A program made the position numbers and the translations under genes. A stretch of DNA of 64,000 bases, from assembly GCF_013487865.1 (NCBI RefSeq), contig NZ_CP047409.1, positions 558,001 to 622,000 on the forward strand. Reading direction: 5' to 3'. The notes under the pieces were generated by a model. It saw nothing but the letters and a program-made list of their open reading frames with translations. It searched no databases and had not been told where the DNA came from. Of this stretch, positions 45,982 through 55,484 are shown piece by piece; positions within the stretch are counted from its first letter, which is position 1; each line of letters starts with the position of its first letter. The DNA comes from Lactobacillus johnsonii. GTDB lineage: Bacteria; Bacillota; Bacilli; Lactobacillales; Lactobacillaceae.

Positions 45982-46019
45982 AAAAAGACTGTTCTGGTAT
46001 TATTTCAGAACAGTCTTTT
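45982..46019. terminator. Bidirectional terminator between fetAB and decarboxylase operon
   Basis: AAAAAGACTGTTCTG pairs with CAGAACAGTCTTTT (with a mismatch-free core GACTGTTCTG / CAGAACAGTC) between convergent units. Confidence 0.9.
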
Positions 46020-46049: not shown

Positions 46050-47336
46050 TTACTCAACTCTAGCGATTTCATCATGAACTTTAATATTATGAGAACCTAA
46101 ACTTGGTTCTTGACCATGTAGATTAAATTTAACATTAACTCCTGGTCTAAACAAAAGAACATGTGTTGAGCCACCAAAGTGGAAAATACCTAATTGATCA
46201 CCTTTATTAATATGCTGACCAACTTTAACAGTAATTTCGTTGCCGGAAACTTCTGCCATACCAACAGCTACAAAGCACATTAAGCCAATCTTAGGATTGT
46301 CTGCTTTAATGAAGATGACTGCACGTGATGCAGTTTCGGTAATATAAGCTTGAGAATCATTGGGAGCAGCTGGATCAGGACCATTAGGATTTTCAAAGCC
46401 TTGTGGTAAAGTTTCAGAGTAATAAGAACCATATAGGTTGTAGGCTTTAACTACTGTTCCGCTTACTGGACTATTCCATCTGTGGTAACTTAATGCACTA
46501 AGAAATGCTTGATAAAGAGTACCACCAACAAATTCTGAAGTTAATGGATCATTATGGAGTAGGTCAATTAATGAATATGGTTGTCCTTTAATCCAGAATT
46601 TAGCCTTTAAAGGTAGGTTATGAGCAATGCGATATGGTGCTGACTCACAAGCGTTAGCAATTGAATCAGGATCGTCTGCATTAACAACTGGACGAACGCC
46701 AGGATTAAATGTCCGGGTAAAGAAGTGATCCCATGAAGTAAAACCATATTGTTGATCAATATTATTATTAGGACAAGCAAAAATATCATGGAAATCTTTG
46801 CCATAGGCAGCATCACACATGCTCTTTAATGCTTCATTTCCAAGCCATCCTTCTTTAGACCGATTAAGTACATACGTAGAATCAGGAGATTGTAAAAACT
46901 TTCCCCAGTAATCTAAAATATCACGTAATTTTTGATTAACCCGTGGATCCATAAAGGCAACATATCCAGCCTTGGTTGCCATTGGATAGTCGAGAATTGC
47001 ATTAATTGGGAAACCAACTAATCCAGTAGTATTAAATTTAGGAGCGCGGTGCATAACACGATTAATAACTCTCAGCATTTGATGATAGTTGTGAACTGCT
47101 GGAGTATCCATTGGCGTTTCAACATATTTTGCTGGCACTTCTTCAAACATCATGTGGAATAGGTTCCAAAGATATCGATCCGATTCAATTAAATCTTTTA
47201 GTGCTTGAACAGGTGGTAAAAGGGCTTGATCTTGTTCTGCTTCAGCTTCTTTTAGCACTTTCTTTAACCAGTTGTTGTAAAATTCCTGATCACTTGGTAA
47301 CCATTGTCCAACGTTAAATTTTACGTCTTTTTTCAT
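46050..47336 (-). CDS. Pyruvoyl decarboxylase of the PSD family, PsiD-like, copy 2
   Basis: The 428-aa protein has the N-terminal PSDC-type domain (IESDRYLWNLFHMMFEE, NTTGLVGFPINAILDYPMAT) absent from membrane phosphatidylserine decarboxylases, then the PSD catalytic domain: YHRWNSPVSGTVV with the conserved His, and GIFHFGGSTHVLLF, where Ser390 should become the pyruvoyl group after cleavage, leaving a 39-residue alpha chain. No membrane anchor is seen. The order and motifs closely resemble L-tryptophan decarboxylase PsiD. It lies 26 bases after an antiporter gene. I infer a soluble amino acid decarboxylase; its substrate is unknown. Confidence 0.82.
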   Translation of the reverse strand: MKKDVKFNVGQWLPSDQEFYNNWLKKVLKEAEAEQDQALLPPVQALKDLIESDRYLWNLFHMMFEEVPAKYVETPMDTPAVHNYHQMLRVINRVMHRAPKFNTTGLVGFPINAILDYPMATKAGYVAFMDPRVNQKLRDILDYWGKFLQSPDSTYVLNRSKEGWLGNEALKSMCDAAYGKDFHDIFACPNNNIDQQYGFTSWDHFFTRTFNPGVRPVVNADDPDSIANACESAPYRIAHNLPLKAKFWIKGQPYSLIDLLHNDPLTSEFVGGTLYQAFLSALSYHRWNSPVSGTVVKAYNLYGSYYSETLPQGFENPNGPDPAAPNDSQAYITETASRAVIFIKADNPKIGLMCFVAVGMAEVSGNEITVKVGQHINKGDQLGIFHFGGSTHVLLFRPGVNVKFNLHGQEPSLGSHNIKVHDEIARVE

Positions 47337-47362
47337 TTTAAACACCTTTTTAATATTAATAA

Positions 47363-48796
47363 CTATAATGAAATCTTCTTAGTAACTAGCAGATATACAG
47401 AGATAACAGCCAAAATACATATAATAATAGCCAATGCTAATTCCCACTTGTTAAATAGAGGGGTACCTTTCTTGTCGTATTCTTTTCTGGCAAAGTAGTA
47501 GAAGATTATGCCTACAGCATAAATAATTGTCGAAATTAGTAGGTAATTAAGTCCTGCTGCATATAAGAGCCATAGACAATAGATAGTTGATAAAATACCT
47601 ATGAATAAACTCTTATTACGTTTATGAGAATCGTTTGTAAAAATTTCGCGTTTTTGCGCAATTTTCCATAAGTACATTGAACTCAATAGATAACAAGGTA
47701 AAATTATTACCCCGGTAATGTCGATACATGCTAGATAAACGTTATTAGCTGTTACTACTAATATCATGAACAAGGACATCAAAACGCTTGAAATATATAA
47801 GGATACACTAGGCACCTTTTTCTTGTTTTCATGAGCAAAGAATTTTGGCAATACATGTCCTTTAGCTGCAGCATATGGAAGCTGAGCCATCATAACTGTC
47901 CATGCAACCCATGAACCACCAACGGAAATAATTACAGAAATTGTTACGAAGTCTATGAACCATGGACCTAATAAGTTTTTCATTAAGTAAGCTGTTGATG
48001 GATCAGTGAGTTTAGAAAGAGTTGGTTGGTGATAAATACCATAAGCAACAATACTAATTAGAATGTAGGCGATTAATGAAATTAAATAACCCATTACAGT
48101 TGCTTTACCAACATCTTTAGGATTTTTAGCGTGGTTAGAAATAACGACTGCACCTTCAATACCGATAAAGCACCATAACGTTACTAACATAGGAGCCTTA
48201 ATTTGACTAACAAAATTTCCTAAATGAAGACCTTGTCCCCAGAATCCCCAGAAAAATGTTGGGAAACGGAAGAAGATTAGCATACAAATTAAAATGATTC
48301 CTAAACTAATGAACTTGATGATGACTGTAATATTGTTAAGAAATGAGGCTTCTTTAACACCATTAAGAACTAAAAAATTATAAATCCAAATTAAGACAAT
48401 ACCGAATATAACAGTTGGCCATTGGTGTTTAAGCAAGACCGGAAAATAATGACCGAAGGAGTCATTAAGCATAACTGCATAGGCCACGTTTCCTGTAATT
48501 GCTTCAATCCAATAACCCCAGGCTGAGTTAAAACCAACGTATTTACCGAAACCAGCACGTGCATAGGAATAAATACCAATATTTAAGTCTGGTCTCTCTT
48601 CAGCTAGGATTTTAAAGGTAAAGGCAAGCCCAAACATACCAATACCAGTCAAAATCCAAGCAATGATGACGGCACCAAGTGAAGATGAAGCAGCCATATT
48701 TTGGGGAATATCAAAAATTCCTCCACCAATCATGGCACCGACAACCATCGCAATTAAGCCAAAGAGACCAATTTTACGACTGTTAGATTTAGTCAT
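47363..48796 (-). CDS. APA-type amino acid/amine antiporter (APC superfamily)
   Basis: The 477-aa protein has 12 helices and resembles the basic amino acid/polyamine antiporters such as ArcD, CadB-like and HdcP: VGAMIGGGIFDIPQNMA in helix 1, GFNSAWGYWIEAITGNVAYA in helix 3, and WCFIGIEGAVVISNHAKNPKDVGKAT in helix 6. It lies between two PsiD-like decarboxylase genes in one operon, 39 bases after the first and 26 bases before the second. This setting implies uptake of an amino acid in exchange for its decarboxylation product. Confidence 0.88.
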   Translation of the reverse strand: MTKSNSRKIGLFGLIAMVVGAMIGGGIFDIPQNMAASSSLGAVIIAWILTGIGMFGLAFTFKILAEERPDLNIGIYSYARAGFGKYVGFNSAWGYWIEAITGNVAYAVMLNDSFGHYFPVLLKHQWPTVIFGIVLIWIYNFLVLNGVKEASFLNNITVIIKFISLGIILICMLIFFRFPTFFWGFWGQGLHLGNFVSQIKAPMLVTLWCFIGIEGAVVISNHAKNPKDVGKATVMGYLISLIAYILISIVAYGIYHQPTLSKLTDPSTAYLMKNLLGPWFIDFVTISVIISVGGSWVAWTVMMAQLPYAAAKGHVLPKFFAHENKKKVPSVSLYISSVLMSLFMILVVTANNVYLACIDITGVIILPCYLLSSMYLWKIAQKREIFTNDSHKRNKSLFIGILSTIYCLWLLYAAGLNYLLISTIIYAVGIIFYYFARKEYDKKGTPLFNKWELALAIIICILAVISVYLLVTKKISL

Positions 48797-48835
48797 TATG
48801 AGATCTTCTTTCTTTTAATCAATAAAAATTCATCC

Positions 48836-50122
48836 TTATTTAACACGAGCTATTTCTTCACGAACTTTAATATTTGAACTGCCTAAACCAGGTTCTTGAT
48901 CATGTAAATTAAATTCAACTTGAGTTTCAGGTCTAAATAGAAGTACGTGGGTTGAACCACCGAAATGGAACATCCCTAGTTGATCGCCCTTGTTAACGTG
49001 TTGACCAACACGTACAGTGATTTCATCACTTGAAACTTCTGACATACCTACAGCGACAAAGCACATGAGACCAATCTTTGGGTTATCAGCCTTAATGAAA
49101 ATAACAGCACGAGTAGCCGTAGCAGTTAAGAAAGCCTGTGAATCGTTTGCAGCAACAGGATCAGCACCACGTTCATTTGCAAAGCCTTGATATAGACTTT
49201 CGGAGTAATATGAACCTGGTAAATTATATGCTTTAACAATAGTTCCACTAACAGGACTATTCCATCTGTGGTAACTTAAAGCACTTAAAAATGCTTGGTA
49301 TAAAGTGCCACCTTCAAATTTTGATGTCCATGGATCGTTATGAAGAAGATCCATTAATGAATAGGGTTGTCCTTTAATCCAGAACTTTGCTTTCATTGGT
49401 AAATCACGGGCAATTCTAAATGGAGCAGATTCACATGCATTAGCGATTGAATCTGGATCATCAGGATCTTGGACAGGACGAATGCCAGGATTGAATAAAC
49501 GAGTAAAGAAATTATCCCAGGAAGTAAAGCCTAAATGCTTTTCACGATCATTTGATTTACATTTGAAAATAGTTGTGAAATTATCGCCATCGGCTACTTT
49601 AGACATTTCGTTTAATGCATAGTCACTTAACCAACCATTTTTAGAAGTGTTAAGAACATAGGTAGATGCAGGAGTTTGCAAATATTTGCCCCAATAATTT
49701 AATATATCTCTTAATTTCTTATTGATTTTCGGATTCATGAAAAATACATATCCAGCTTTAGTAGCCATTGGATAATCCCAAATTGCATTGATTGGCGTTC
49801 CGACCAATCCGGTAGTATTAAATTCTGGAGCTCTTTGAATAATACGATTGAGCATTAAAAGCATTTGACGATAATTTCTTACTTGAGGAGTCCCCATCGG
49901 TGTGTCGACATATTTTTCAGGAATTTCATCAAACATCATTTGAGTAATATTGTACAAGTACCGATCAGACTCAATTAAATTTTTTAAGGCTTGAACGGGA
50001 GGAAGTAACTTTTGATTTTCTTCACTTTCTGCTTCTTTTAGAACCTTTTTTAACCATTTATTATAGAATTCTTGGTCACTTGGTAACCATTGTCCTACAT
50101 TGTATTGAATATTCTTTTTCAT
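48836..50122 (-). CDS. Pyruvoyl decarboxylase of the PSD family, PsiD-like, copy 1
   Basis: A 428-aa paralog of the decarboxylase at 46050-47336 with identical architecture and length: VGQWLPSDQEFYNKWLKKVL at the N-terminus, SYHRWNSPVSGTIVK, and FHFGGSTHVLLF with Ser390 as the expected pyruvoyl precursor. The two copies differ most around residues 180-210 (CKSNDREKHLGF versus CPNNNIDQQYGF), possibly a substrate or interface difference. It is the first gene of the operon behind a consensus-like promoter, with CGAGGT before the ATG. The annotation phosphatidylserine decarboxylase would be misleading: there is no membrane anchor, and the neighbour is an amine-type antiporter. Confidence 0.82.
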   Translation of the reverse strand: MKKNIQYNVGQWLPSDQEFYNKWLKKVLKEAESEENQKLLPPVQALKNLIESDRYLYNITQMMFDEIPEKYVDTPMGTPQVRNYRQMLLMLNRIIQRAPEFNTTGLVGTPINAIWDYPMATKAGYVFFMNPKINKKLRDILNYWGKYLQTPASTYVLNTSKNGWLSDYALNEMSKVADGDNFTTIFKCKSNDREKHLGFTSWDNFFTRLFNPGIRPVQDPDDPDSIANACESAPFRIARDLPMKAKFWIKGQPYSLMDLLHNDPWTSKFEGGTLYQAFLSALSYHRWNSPVSGTIVKAYNLPGSYYSESLYQGFANERGADPVAANDSQAFLTATATRAVIFIKADNPKIGLMCFVAVGMSEVSSDEITVRVGQHVNKGDQLGMFHFGGSTHVLLFRPETQVEFNLHDQEPGLGSSNIKVREEIARVK

Positions 50123-50192
50123 AATTTATACCTCGATATTTATGAAAAAAATAACGCTAATCTTAATAAAAAATGTGCACACTTTCAATATC

Positions 50193-50221
50193 ATTATAGG
50201 CTCAAATAAAAATAACGTCAA
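50193..50221 (-). promoter_or_regulatory. Strong promoter of the decarboxylase-antiporter operon
   Basis: On the minus strand TTGACG and a perfect TATAAT are separated by 17 bases, about 70 bases before the first ATG. No terminator or T-box intervenes, so initiation probably sets expression. Confidence 0.82.
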
Positions 50222-50363
50222 AAAATAAGAAGCAATATTCCAAATTAACATATATTCATAAAATTAAATTTAATGATAAGAATTGTTACTAAGAAGGCGA
50301 TATAATATTTATGGAAGAAAGTTACTTTTTATACTAAATATAAACATATAGGAAAGAAAAATC

Positions 50364-50743
50364 ATGGAACGAATACTAAAAATTAACTAATTTCTACACG
50401 GTGGAGATTATAATCCTGAACAATGGTGGGACGAACCAGATATTATTAATCAAGACTTCGCATTTTTTAAACAGGCGGATATCCATACAGTAACTGTAGG
50501 AATTTTTTCATGGGCAAAGGTAGAACCAGAAAAAGAATAGATCCTTTTGCTGGATTTGACTATCAAAAGCTAGCTAAGCATGTAGATCTTATCTCTTGGG
50601 ATTCTTATCCAGCTTGGGGTAATGACAATCAGACGACAGAAGAATTAGGTAGAAATATTAGCCTAATTCATGACTGCTTTAGGAGTTTGAAACATCAGAA
50701 CTTTTTAGTAATGGAAAATACACCACAAACAGAAGATAATTAA
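50364..50743 (+). pseudogene. Decayed GH42 beta-galactosidase
   Basis: An ATG with a nearby GGAAAG site begins MERILKIN, then TAA, then FLHGGDYNPEQWWDEPDI and HTVTVGIFSWAKVEPEKE, the GH42 N-terminus, before a stop. After an internal deletion the sequence resumes GFDYQKLAKHVDLISWDSYP and ends with LVMENTP, which contains the nucleophile Glu region. Complete enzymes are about 670 aa; here about 125 codons remain. Nonsense codons and deletion make it clearly dead, evidence of a lost galactoside pathway. Confidence 0.88.
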
Positions 50744-50860
50744 CGGTGAAGTTGTTCTTACTCCATTTGGAAGTAAGATTTATAAAAAAATAAATAGATA
50801 AAATGAGTATCTTTAAAAGTAAAGATTGCTTATTTTTTTGATATACTGCTCTGTACCAAT

Positions 50861-50890
50861 TTGACTACTTATTATAAATAGGTATAGAAT
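50861..50890 (+). promoter_or_regulatory. Predicted promoter of dtpT
   Basis: TTGACT is followed by TATAGA after 16 bases or TAGAAT after 18 bases, about 50 bases before the dtpT ATG. Confidence 0.6.
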
Positions 50891-50939
50891 AGACCTTTCT
50901 GTGTATATAAAACACATAATACAGAAAGGATAGTTTTTA

Positions 50940-52455: not shown

Positions 52456-53910
52456 GGCTGTTTGTCAAATCCTGTTGATGAATAGTTTGTAAAGAGAGCT
52501 AAGCAACTAGAAAATAGTTGTTTGGCTCTTTTTCTTTTACAATATTTTCTTCAAGTCTAATTCTAATTAATAAATGTTTGAAATTTCTATAGCCATAAGC
52601 AGTACGTTCAATTTGCTTAATCTTCCGATTGACACCTTCAAGACAACCATTAGAGTAGTTAGAAGATATACCGTTTAGGACACCGGTATAATTATGCTTA
52701 AAGGTCAGTAGTGTTTGATGCATTTGTTTACCAACACTTTGTTTTGAATGAAGTAGATGGATAACTTTCTTTTCATCGTTATCCTGAATAGCAGTCATAA
52801 AGTCCTGCATAACCCAATAAGTATTTTCTAAGGTTTGGTCACAATCTAAACCATCTAAGACAACATGTTCCTGAGTGAGAGAGTCTTTAAAGTGCCAATC
52901 GTAGTAGGGAGTAGTCTTATTAAGTTTGTCATATTTCATGAGATAAAGCTTCCAAGGAGACTTTAAAAGCTTATATTCATGGCTTTGCTTTTTAAATTGC
53001 TTCATGATTTGAACTCTGAAAATATTAAACGATCTAGTAAGCATTTGAACCATATGAAAACGGTCAATAACTATCTGAGCATTTGGAAATAATTCTCTAG
53101 CAACTAAAGGATAATAACAATTAAGATCCATAGTTACTGTTTTAACCATTGCACGAGCTTTAGGAGTGAACTTGTAAAAATAGCGTAGAATATCAGGTTT
53201 GAAACGAGTTCTAAGAATTTGAACAACTTTGTGAGTATCACCATCTAGACAAATAAAGTGAAGCTTTTTGCCTACACCTTTGAATTCATCAAAGGCTAAG
53301 TGTTCAGGGAGATGATCAAAGTCATCATAGAACTTAGAAGAGCAGGCTTCTAATACTCTTTGAACCGTGTTGACAGATACATTATGTTCTCTAGCAATGC
53401 TGGTCATTGAACGATCTTCAGTAAGAGCAGAAAGTATTTTTCGCTTAGAAGTGTTAGAGATATAGCAGCTTTTATTAACCAGATTAGATTGAGCCATAGA
53501 TCTTTTTAAACAATCATTGCAGAGAACACGTTGTTTTCTTAATCTGATAGTAACGGGCTTACTAGCATCAGCAGTAATGAAACGAACGTTAGAAACGTAA
53601 TGACCGTTATGCTTAAGATTAGAGGAAAGACAGTAAGGACAATGGGACTGAATAAGTTCAGCTACATAGAGATTATGATATTTGCCGTTAATATATTTTT
53701 TAAAATAATCAGAAAAATAATATTAGGATCTTCAATATTGAGATGAAATTTAATACAATCATTGTTAGAGGACATAAGCAATCACCTTTATTCTTTAGAG
53801 TGGAATCAGAAGATTTAATGCAGTGAGGCTTATGGCCTCTTTCTTTGTGCAATAAAAATCCTGTCGATAGAATATCATAGATATCCATCAACAGGAAAAA
53901 GTATAGAGCC
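52456..53910 (-). mobile_element. ISL3-family insertion sequence, 1455 bp, with 8-bp target duplication
   Basis: Imperfect inverted repeats begin GGCT at 52456 and at the complement of 53910, sharing the stretch CCTGTTGATG. They are flanked by a perfect direct repeat, AATATTTA, at 52448-52455 and 53911-53918, the 8-bp duplication expected of ISL3. The transposase inside has a frameshift. The insertion lies between dtpT and what looks like its terminator. Confidence 0.93.
52499..53775 (-). pseudogene. Frameshifted ISL3-family transposase
   Basis: The catalytic part (52499-53497) is open, with HLAFDEFKGVGKKLHFICLD, TVTMDLNCYYPLVARELFP, VIDRFHMVQML and SNGCLEGVNRKIKQIERTAYGYRN, the ISL3 DDE region. 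The N-terminal zinc-finger part starts at ATG 53773-53775 (MSSNNDCIKFHLNIEDPNII) and includes CPYC and LCNDC cysteines, but a run of five T (plus-strand A at 53713-53717) needs a sixth to join the two frames. One base has been lost, so this copy cannot make a full protein without frameshifting. Intact length would be 425 aa. Confidence 0.88.
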
Positions 53911-54077: not shown

Positions 54078-55484
54078 ATGATTGAAAGTAATCACAGTGC
54101 ATGTACATCAATTTTAATTGGGAAAAATGCTACTACAGATGGCAGCATTATCATTGGACGTAATGAAGATGATAAGCCAAACTGTGCTAAGCATTTAGCT
54201 TTTCATGAAGAAAAGGATATTCCTAATAATCACTTTAAGTCTAACTTGAATAAGTTTGAAATGGATTTACCAATTCATAGATATGCTTATTCTTCAACTC
54301 CAAACTGGAGTGACAAGAAGGGTGTTTATGAAGAATCTGGGATTAACCAATTTGGTGTAGCAATGAGTGCTACTGAAACTACCTATGCCAATGACCAAGT
54401 TCAATCTTTTGATCCATTCAAGAAGACCGGTATCATTGAAGAAGCAATGGTAACTTGTATCTTGCCTTATGTAAAGACAGCACGCGAAGCTATTGCTCGT
54501 TTTGCTAAGATTATTAAAGATCATACTGCAGGTGAATCAGATGGTATTTTGTTCGCTGACCCTAAAGAAGCTTGGTACTTCGAAATTGGTACTGCTCACT
54601 ACTGGGTAGCACAACGTATTCCAGATGATTGCTATGCTGTAGCTGCTAATGAATTAGCCATTCAAGAAATTGACTTTAATGACTCTGATAACTTCATTAC
54701 TGCTCCTGGTTTACAAAAATTTGTTGAAGAACATAATTTATGGCCAAATAATAAGCCATTTAATTGGCGTCGTATTTTTGGTACACATAACCTGTTGGAT
54801 TTAACTTATAACACTGCTCGTGTTTGGACTGGCCAAAGAATCTTAAGTCCTTCTATTAAGCAAGAGCCAAGCAGCTTTGATATTCCATTTATTCAAAAAG
54901 CAGACCATCCAATTTCAATCACTGATGCCCAAAGAGTATTAAGAGACCACTATGATGGAACTAAATATGATGTAGCAAATCCTGTTAATAAAGATACAGC
55001 GGTATATCGTCCAATTAGTGTTGACTTTACTGAAGAGTCACACTTACTGCAACTGAAAGGTAAGGATTGGATTCACTGGTTATCATTAGGCATTACTTGT
55101 CAAAATGTATATGTTCCTTTCTACCCACAAGGTAGCGTAGTACCAAGCTTCTATAGACACGGCAAAGATAAGTATGCTTCAAACTCAGCTTATTGGATTT
55201 ACAAGGAAGCACAAGTCTTAGCTGATCGTTCATGGAAAGACTATGGTTTGCAATTGTATCAGGCTAGAAATGCTACACAACAAAAATTAAGTCAAATGCG
55301 GGCAGAATATGATGTTAAAGTGGATAAGGAAAAAGATCCTGCAAAGAAGCTAGACTTAATTAATAAAGCAAACAAAGACTTAGCTCATACGGCAGTTAAA
55401 GACTACCAAGAATTAATTGGTAAGTTAATCACTAAGCAAATAAAGAAATCACCATTGCACTTTAGAAGAGACCCAGACTTATAA
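54078..55484 (+). CDS. pepD: C69-family dipeptidase, second PepD-type enzyme
   Basis: The 468-aa Ntn-hydrolase begins MIESNHSACTSILIGKNATT; Cys9 is the predicted nucleophile after a short leader. GIIEEAMVTCILPYVKTAREA, ESDGILFADPKEAWYFEIGTAHYWVAQR and YNTARVWTGQR are PepD segments. It differs from the C69 gene at 32227 by its leader, and by the SHLLQLKGKDWIHWLSLG region. No strong ribosome site precedes ATG 54078, but a tiny frame with AAAGG (ATG AAA GTG TGA, 54061-54072) lies just upstream and may help by coupling. Codon use suggests high expression. Confidence 0.9.
   Translation: MIESNHSACTSILIGKNATTDGSIIIGRNEDDKPNCAKHLAFHEEKDIPNNHFKSNLNKFEMDLPIHRYAYSSTPNWSDKKGVYEESGINQFGVAMSATETTYANDQVQSFDPFKKTGIIEEAMVTCILPYVKTAREAIARFAKIIKDHTAGESDGILFADPKEAWYFEIGTAHYWVAQRIPDDCYAVAANELAIQEIDFNDSDNFITAPGLQKFVEEHNLWPNNKPFNWRRIFGTHNLLDLTYNTARVWTGQRILSPSIKQEPSSFDIPFIQKADHPISITDAQRVLRDHYDGTKYDVANPVNKDTAVYRPISVDFTEESHLLQLKGKDWIHWLSLGITCQNVYVPFYPQGSVVPSFYRHGKDKYASNSAYWIYKEAQVLADRSWKDYGLQLYQARNATQQKLSQMRAEYDVKVDKEKDPAKKLDLINKANKDLAHTAVKDYQELIGKLITKQIKKSPLHFRRDPDL

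Follow-up and report, generated by a model that had tools for sequence, protein, structure and literature searches.

The window, a 64,000-nucleotide stretch of Lactobacillus johnsonii DNA (contig NZ_CP047409.1 of assembly GCF_013487865.1, positions 558,001 to 622,000), holds three co-oriented genes on the minus strand that encode a PSDC-type enzyme, an antiporter of the APA family and a second PSDC-type enzyme, with gaps of 39 and 26 bp between them. We think it likely that the operon couples a pyruvoyl-dependent L-arginine decarboxylase to an arginine/agmatine exchanger, and that its purpose is probably acid resistance; the case for arginine as the substrate is built by analogy in sequence, fold and gene context. 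An initial annotation of this DNA had described two decarboxylases of 428 residues with a PSDC domain on either side of an antiporter, and the open reading frames together with the PF12588 and PF02666 matches bear this out. The features are as follows.

48836-50122, minus strand: copy A (P0002), PSDC-type pyruvoyl decarboxylase of 428 residues with PF12588 and PF02666, putative L-arginine decarboxylase proenzyme
48953-48955, minus strand: Ser390 codon of copy A, computed from the translation; predicted cleavage (between GG and S) and pyruvoyl site
47363-48796, minus strand: APA antiporter (P0003), 477 residues, putative arginine/agmatine exchanger
46050-47336, minus strand: copy B (P0001), PSDC-type pyruvoyl decarboxylase of 428 residues with PF12588 and PF02666, the copy that accompanies the antiporter (the open reading frame list begins at a GTG three codons upstream, giving 431 residues)
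46167-46169, minus strand: Ser390 codon of copy B, computed from the translation
50193-50221 (5' end at 50221), minus strand: candidate sigma-70 promoter TTGACG-17-TATAAT, from a motif scan
45983-46019, no strand assigned: 14-bp hairpin with A/T runs at the 3' end of the operon

In the mechanism that we propose, P0003 would import L-arginine, and the cytosolic paralogues P0001 and P0002, which share the fold of phosphatidylserine decarboxylase (PSD), would cleave themselves before Ser390 to form a pyruvoyl cofactor. The pyruvoyl group would hold arginine as a Schiff base, and the release of CO2 with the consumption of one proton would give agmatine, which is one charge more positive and would leave through P0003 in exchange for arginine. 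Each turn would alkalinise the cytosol and export one net positive charge, an outcome that would support acid resistance and the proton-motive force and place agmatine outside the cell. The likenesses set out below are what lead us to infer the substrate, the autocatalytic cleavage of the enzymes, an exchange in this direction and a part in acid resistance.

The two PSDC-type enzymes and their label

P0001 and P0002 are 75% identical to each other, and each has two Pfam matches above cut-off and no others, namely PF12588 (PSDC; 2.5e-49 and 3.2e-48) and PF02666 (PS_Dcarbxylase; 3.7e-34 and 3.2e-36). The sequence FHFGGSTHVLLF is common to both, and since the motif FHFGGS begins at residue 385 in each, the serine falls at position 390 in the two proteins alike, as had been claimed. 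That neither enzyme carries a membrane anchor also held, in that no 19-residue window of either protein reaches a mean Kyte-Doolittle hydropathy of 1.6 or more, and both are predicted from hydropathy to be soluble proteins of 48 kDa. Ser390 and His285 are present in all 81 aligned bacterial rows and Thr391 in 79 of them, and the motif in both window proteins reads GGST. In the E. coli PSD, His144 is the main helper of Ser254, according to an excerpt of PMC7952604. Our motif alignment sets this His144 opposite His285, Asp90 opposite Glu231, Asp142 opposite Ser283 and His147 opposite Asn288, and by analogy His285 and Ser390 would drive self-cleavage in P0001 and P0002. At 115 positions the family is near-invariant, and P0001 and P0002 retain 112 and 110 of these, respectively, which makes it plausible that both enzymes act on one amino acid.

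The database label and the shared PSD domain speak for true phosphatidylserine decarboxylases that produce phosphatidylethanolamine, a reading that we regard as barely credible. The NCBIfam PSD models give P0001 and P0002 at most 86.8 bits, against cut-offs of 111.75-371 (86.8 against 371 for the best). A tree of 42 rows, made with 29 of the 70 bacterial PSDC rows and without L186 and L198, splits 11 canonical PSDs from the PSDC proteins, namely those 29 and two fungal ones, with support of 99/99. The source genome has only two PF02666 matches, P0001 and P0002 themselves, and it yields no more than 23.5 bits, where the cut-off is 107, with the PssA-type phosphatidylserine synthase model TIGR00473, in a search confined to that type of synthase. 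Among the 18 PSDC-bearing genomes searched in all, the PSDC protein is accompanied by another PF02666 protein that is shorter (219-374 residues by reading frame) in 16 of 16 from outside the Lactobacillaceae, 11 of these shorter proteins being in the tree and five counted by domain match alone; in the Lactobacillaceae genomes G226 and G104 the PSDC protein is the sole PF02666 match. Tree, cut-offs and genome context thus lead us to reject PSD function, in agreement with the initial annotation, which had also warned that such a label would mislead: most of the annotated plasmid relatives are named 'phosphatidylserine decarboxylase family protein'.

The antiporter and the gene neighbourhoods of relatives

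P0003 has 12 hydrophobic 19-residue segments (mean Kyte-Doolittle hydropathy of at least 1.6) and passes the basic amino acid/polyamine antiporter model TIGR00905 with 510.5 bits against a cut-off of 409.05, so that its assignment to the APA family is secure. It had further been likened to the antiporters that are paired with histidine or lysine decarboxylases; an amine-type antiporter it may well be, and the models place it nearest the arginine-ornithine type, below the cut-off. P0003 is 28% identical to the aligned stretch of AdiC, the arginine/agmatine antiporter of E. coli. In AdiC numbering, obtained by counting along the alignment, columns N101 and W202 are kept by P0003 and six other antiporters linked to PSDC genes and are lost in both aligned TyrP-like proteins, and columns E208 and W293 are conserved across all ten aligned rows. 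We take these four to be ligand or gating positions of AdiC.

Relatives of the two enzymes occur well beyond the lactobacilli. A scan of named genomes gave 229 places, of which the best 80, amounting to 79 loci, were kept; three without a called PSDC gene were left uncounted. Fifteen of the 79 loci belong to Lactobacillaceae, one to Veillonellaceae (67%) and the other 63, at 49-55%, to Bacteroidota, Pseudomonadota, desulfobacteria, Lentisphaerota, Actinomycetota and further groups, and the PSDC proteins are a scattered bacterial family. The Veillonellaceae locus (L090, from an uncultured member) is the sister of the Lactobacillaceae clade (100/99) and carries on one strand a run of an antiporter 63% identical to P0003, AguA, AguB and the PSDC gene. 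Its AguA passes the agmatine deiminase model (551.8 bits, cut-off 381.8) and its AguB the N-carbamoylputrescine amidase model (446.9, cut-off 410.25). Among 28 genomes of this family, a PSDC gene was found in one and AguA in one, and it is the same genome. An AdiA-like gene is represented directly upstream of the antiporter (L090:3569-4405) by its C-terminal third, which is 47% identical over 281 residues to the counterpart in the Chlorobiota locus L105, where an antiporter, a full-length AdiA-like decarboxylase of the pyridoxal phosphate (PLP) type (762 residues) and a PSDC gene stand in a row. The L105 protein has arginine decarboxylase as its best model, at 706.4 bits against a cut-off of 1167. 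Because only this third remains, decay of a PLP enzyme where the PSDC gene now stands is suggested for L090; no intact PLP arginine decarboxylase occurs in the L090 stretch, the part of that genome that was searched.

Outside the Lactobacillaceae, such an antiporter is present, within the stretch examined, at six of the 61 loci in which a PSDC gene was called; it is the immediate neighbour of the PSDC gene in L130, L132, L133 and L152 and is separated from it by one or two genes in L105 and L090. The linkage recurs in Rhodobacterales, in Ignatzschineria, in one Chlorobiota genome and on two gammaproteobacterial plasmids. The genes are convergent in the Rhodobacterales loci (L130, L133 and L152) and co-oriented elsewhere, and this difference in orientation argues against a single inherited block. 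The earlier proposal that an antiporter works together with a decarboxylase of amino acids is supported as a probable one. In a Scalindua genome, a second and very divergent PSDC-like gene (L117:3198-4556) lacks many of the residues conserved in the family.

Of 24 plasmid records that bear a PSDC gene, nine were opened, one of them without annotation in view, and two have the antiporter beside the PSDC gene. One (L218) is a plasmid of Enterobacter cancerogenus typed as conjugative, on which YfdX, EmrA/EmrK-type and DHA2 efflux genes accompany the antiporter and PSDC genes (L218:555-7251); the other (L220) is a Photobacterium plasmid typed as non-mobilizable. In E. coli, genes of the YfdX and EmrA/EmrK types belong to the regulon of the acid response, and it is possible that the L218 stretch is a mobile acid-response island. 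Neither an antiporter nor an agmatine gene was seen in six of the opened records (two from Plesiomonas and one each from L. intestinalis, Mycetohabitans, Caballeronia and Paraburkholderia). A search of viral contigs gave three pattern matches, none of them a relative, and the DNA of the antiporter/PSDC pair on the Enterobacter plasmid matched nothing in E. coli genomes.

Within the genus, P0002 has matches in 23 of 75 Lactobacillus genomes, that in G400 being marginal (28%) and those in G242 and G402 only partial. PF12588 is otherwise uncommon among relatives, being found in 15 of 397 genomes of the family (13 of them in this genus, and one of the 15 below cut-off), in 8 of 295 genomes of the order, all of this genus, and in 1 of 398 genomes of the phylum, the window's own. 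An orthologue of the antiporter (at least 88%) is present in eight of the 75 Lactobacillus genomes and directly adjoins a gene of the copy B type in all eight, the next-best Lactobacillus proteins being only 37-38% identical to P0003. Arginine deiminase had no match in the ten Lactobacillus genomes tested, all eight antiporter bearers included, and was present in Limosilactobacillus G104. The ArcD-like antiporter would accordingly have no deiminase pathway to serve in the eight bearers, and a part in such a pathway was rejected. Use of agmatine inside the cell through agmatine deiminase was likewise set aside, as PAD_porph had no match in 11 of 11 genomes, the source genome among them (agmatinase was outside that search).

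Several Lactobacillus loci depart from the arrangement in the window. G070 has three PSDC copies and the antiporter in a row (L056:5629-11195). In G242, where broken PSDC fragments stand at the orthologous site (L076:6672-7596) and an antiporter orthologue is absent, the operon seems for these reasons to have been lost. In Lactobacillus sp. LL6 (L082; L062:6751-8283) a lone PSDC gene is followed by a gene for a YfcC-like basic amino acid antiporter (292.6 bits, below the cut-off of 500).

The choice of substrate

What do these enzymes decarboxylate? By sequence, the best PDB match of P0002 is 9jer (E = 1.1e-78), ahead of the Psilocybe L-tryptophan decarboxylase PsiD (4.1e-65) and of E. coli PSD (2.1e-5), and P0001 shares 42.7% of its residues with 9jer and 38.9% with PsiD. 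Entry 9jer is titled 'Arginine decarboxylase in Aspergillus oryzae', 9jf5 is the same enzyme 'complexed with arginine', and 9jfn has an identical sequence; the arginine activity is taken from these PDB titles. The relatives outside the Lactobacillaceae are nearer 9jer than PsiD in 41 of 61 cases. Residues N112, W248, Y275, E308 and Q329 set the bacterial family and 9jer apart from PsiD, which departs from the family at 32 of its 115 near-invariant positions, two being gaps, with N112Y, W248V, Y275L, E308Q and Q329L among the changes; P0001 and P0002 keep all five. The enzyme in 9jer itself differs at 28, including R286C, F387S and Q252T. The near-invariant positions point both ways, with 23 at which PsiD alone stands apart and 19 at which only 9jer does, so that the residues by themselves do not decide the substrate. 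D116 was dropped as a marker of specificity, being aspartate in 66 of 81 rows and asparagine in 14. The solved relatives, the transporter, the gene context and the missing arginine deiminase, taken together, favour the conversion of arginine to agmatine.

A number of observations weigh against this conclusion. Identity over the whole length barely separates the two fungal enzymes (41-43% to 9jer and 39% to PsiD for the window proteins). With the predicted model of P0002 (mean pLDDT 78.2, pTM 0.79), Foldseek ranks the PsiD chains 8x4q and 8zia first by E-value and TMt (TMq 0.69, TMt 0.84), followed by 9jer and 9jf5 (TMq 0.71 and 0.70, TMt 0.79 and 0.78), with E. coli PSD far below (TMq 0.38-0.42); the model has pLDDT below 50 at residues 246-253 and 307-334, where the compared residues W248, E308 and Q329 lie. 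Twenty of the 61 relatives mentioned above are not nearer 9jer. In the tree, the window proteins form a group with neither 9jer nor PsiD; these two fungal sequences sit on long branches, the former unplaced at the base and the latter within the bacterial set, joins that the program warns may be false. P0003 is below the cut-off of the arginine-ornithine ArcD model TIGR03810 (494.7 against 591) and far below that of the AdiC model NF007929 (183.3 against 574), and because of the latter value we say that it may work like AdiC, not that it is an AdiC. In 55 of the 61 loci no such antiporter occurs in the stretch examined, some of these being short contigs. Agmatine genes that score above cut-off adjoin one relative only, the metagenome-assembled L090, and two further loci scanned, L101 and L111, have no more than remote deiminase-like proteins (23.5-30.3 bits). 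Finally, in three similar Lactobacillus loci (L058, L069 and L074) and in Limosilactobacillus avistercoris (L072, which equals L089), the PSDC gene adjoins genes like those of tyrosine decarboxylase (TDC) and TyrP. The two TDC-like neighbours scanned score 875.5 and 866.6 bits against a cut-off of 905.3, and the TyrP-like neighbours 485.9 and 470.1 against 630.

The last of these observations, 39% identity to PsiD and the top Foldseek rank of its chains are what would favour an aromatic decarboxylase, turning tryptophan or tyrosine into tryptamine or tyramine, with an exchanger of aromatic amines. The initial annotation had leaned this way, finding the motif order nearer to PsiD than to PSD and naming aromatic amino acids as candidates. 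The membership in a PsiD-type family stands; a special likeness to PsiD is not supported, given that the best sequence match is 9jer and the motif is GGST, not GGSS, though the fold search does rank PsiD first. An aromatic substrate is improbable in our estimate and ranks below arginine: the antiporter is of the basic amino acid/polyamine kind, keeps the N101 and W202 columns and reaches only 37.1 bits against 630 with the tyrosine-tyramine TyrP model NF040513, agmatine genes stand in the L090 run, and PsiD lacks the five residues named above, yet 9jer too departs at many positions. The sub-clade beside the TDC-like genes may be an exception, because it is there that most invariant positions have been lost, 14 of 115 in L084 (on the L058 contig) and 16 in L089, including N112A, as compared with three in P0001 and five in P0002. 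Lactobacillus brevis is known to carry genes for agmatine deiminase next to those for tyrosine decarboxylase, in a putative acid-resistance locus, according to the part of a review consulted (PMC6351943), which tempers what TDC-like neighbours say for an aromatic substrate. By analogy, the sub-clade may either have changed its substrate or form an acid-resistance island of the L. brevis kind, with tyrosine decarboxylase and agmatine deiminase.

Ornithine, lysine or histidine as the cationic substrate, paired with a diamine or histamine exchanger, is an unlikely choice. P0003 does score across a broad cationic family, with 395.2 bits for the histidine-histamine model (cut-off 725), and the AdiA-like neighbour in L105 also scores with lysine and ornithine decarboxylase models, all below cut-off; set against this are AguA and AguB of L090, which pass models for agmatine deiminase and N-carbamoylputrescine amidase, and the title of the solved relative. 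It is unlikely, too, that the copies differ in substrate, with P0001 serving the antiporter with arginine and P0002 making another amine, an arrangement that overlaps in part with the one we prefer. The pair of antiporter and copy B occurs without copy A in L053 and L070, genes of the copy A type occur in genomes that lack an antiporter orthologue (for example L059, L060 and L061), and the two proteins differ at a quarter of their residues; the retention by both of nearly all family-invariant positions speaks the other way.

Operon signals, wider meaning and known systems

The hexamers TTGACG-17-TATAAT upstream of copy A are a good match to consensus, as the initial annotation had noted, and its further claim that one strong promoter drives all three genes is plausible and unproven, because one-mismatch sites of the same form are no commoner than chance (the window has two, and shuffled sequence 1.27 on average) and the hexamers are not strictly conserved across five aligned orthologous loci. 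The hairpin at the 3' end has a fold z-score of -5.53, with 0 of 200 shuffles as low, and is likely a bidirectional terminator between the operon and a converging UPF0014 gene. Beyond the promoter, positions 50300-50900 of the window look by eye like the remains of a gene of which L054 and L057 have an intact version (678-679 residues) at the same place, and which we take from its motif to be galactosidase-like. Further on, between genes for a peptide transporter and a dipeptidase, positions 52499-53497 encode a 332-residue relative of the 425-residue ISL3-type transposase of L061. The dipeptidase gene, of the C69 type (54078-55484), has counterparts near the PSDC gene in four loci outside the Lactobacillaceae, L093 (9313-10722), L101, L111 and L115, and in the last three a distant deiminase-like gene lies between the two. 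We would guess that the C69 dipeptidase supplies arginine by way of peptides.

A broader picture can be drawn, which as a whole we hold with somewhat less than even confidence. PSDC-domain proteins of the 'phosphatidylserine decarboxylase family' would be widespread, overlooked pyruvoyl arginine decarboxylases and a further independent origin of agmatine in bacteria; joined to an ArcD-like antiporter, they would constitute a mobile module for resisting acid, present in lactobacilli and marine bacteria and on plasmids, of which one is typed as conjugative; the PSDC enzyme would have replaced a decaying PLP enzyme in one genome; and the TDC-adjacent sub-clade would have moved to a new substrate. 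If this is true, a set of bacterial genes is mislabelled, and lactobacilli, to which a phospholipid enzyme is attributed, may instead be producing and excreting agmatine, an amine active on the host. A recent survey of the amino acid decarboxylases that gut bacteria possess names, in the portion consulted, three pyruvoyl groups (the histidine and the aspartate enzymes and certain short ones for arginine), and the word phosphatidylserine is absent there (PMC12484125), so that PSDC-type genes would be missed by surveys of this kind. A bacterial PSDC amino acid decarboxylase, or an operon joining one with an exchanger, was not found in the literature searched, which left out most subscription journals.

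Among known systems, the A. oryzae arginine decarboxylase (9jer and 9jf5) is closest in architecture, with an alignment over the PSDC and PSD domains that starts at residue 8 of P0002 and reaches the GGS motif; it differs in being fungal and in its near-invariant positions, and we know of no exchanger partner for it. PsiD shares family and fold and has the motif GGSS (PMC6121855, in excerpt), and no antiporter of the P0003 kind is listed in the psilocybin cluster in the text consulted. P0001 and P0002, in matching only PSDC and PS_Dcarbxylase, also contrast with AaxB of Chlamydia. The AaxB family is unrelated to the PSD fold. With its partner AaxC it forms a pair of pyruvoyl-dependent arginine decarboxylase and arginine:agmatine antiporter (PMC2720952, in part). 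The proposed operon would work like this pair. In the E. coli system of acid resistance, the arginine decarboxylase AdiA, which is PLP-dependent, is served by the APA antiporter AdiC, whose four ligand or gating columns P0003 keeps while falling far short of the AdiC equivalog. SpeDA and SpeDC differ from PSD in fold and origin. They are bacterial self-processing pyruvoyl arginine and ornithine decarboxylases derived from AdoMet decarboxylase, in an account whose searched text lacks the word phosphatidylserine (PMC10407285). The arginine/agmatine exchange module is thus already known from AdiA/AdiC and AaxB/AaxC, and an arginine decarboxylase of the PSD fold is known from a fungus by its PDB entry; if our reading is true, the L. 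johnsonii operon represents one more fold turned into an arginine/agmatine pump, and one able to reside on a conjugative plasmid.

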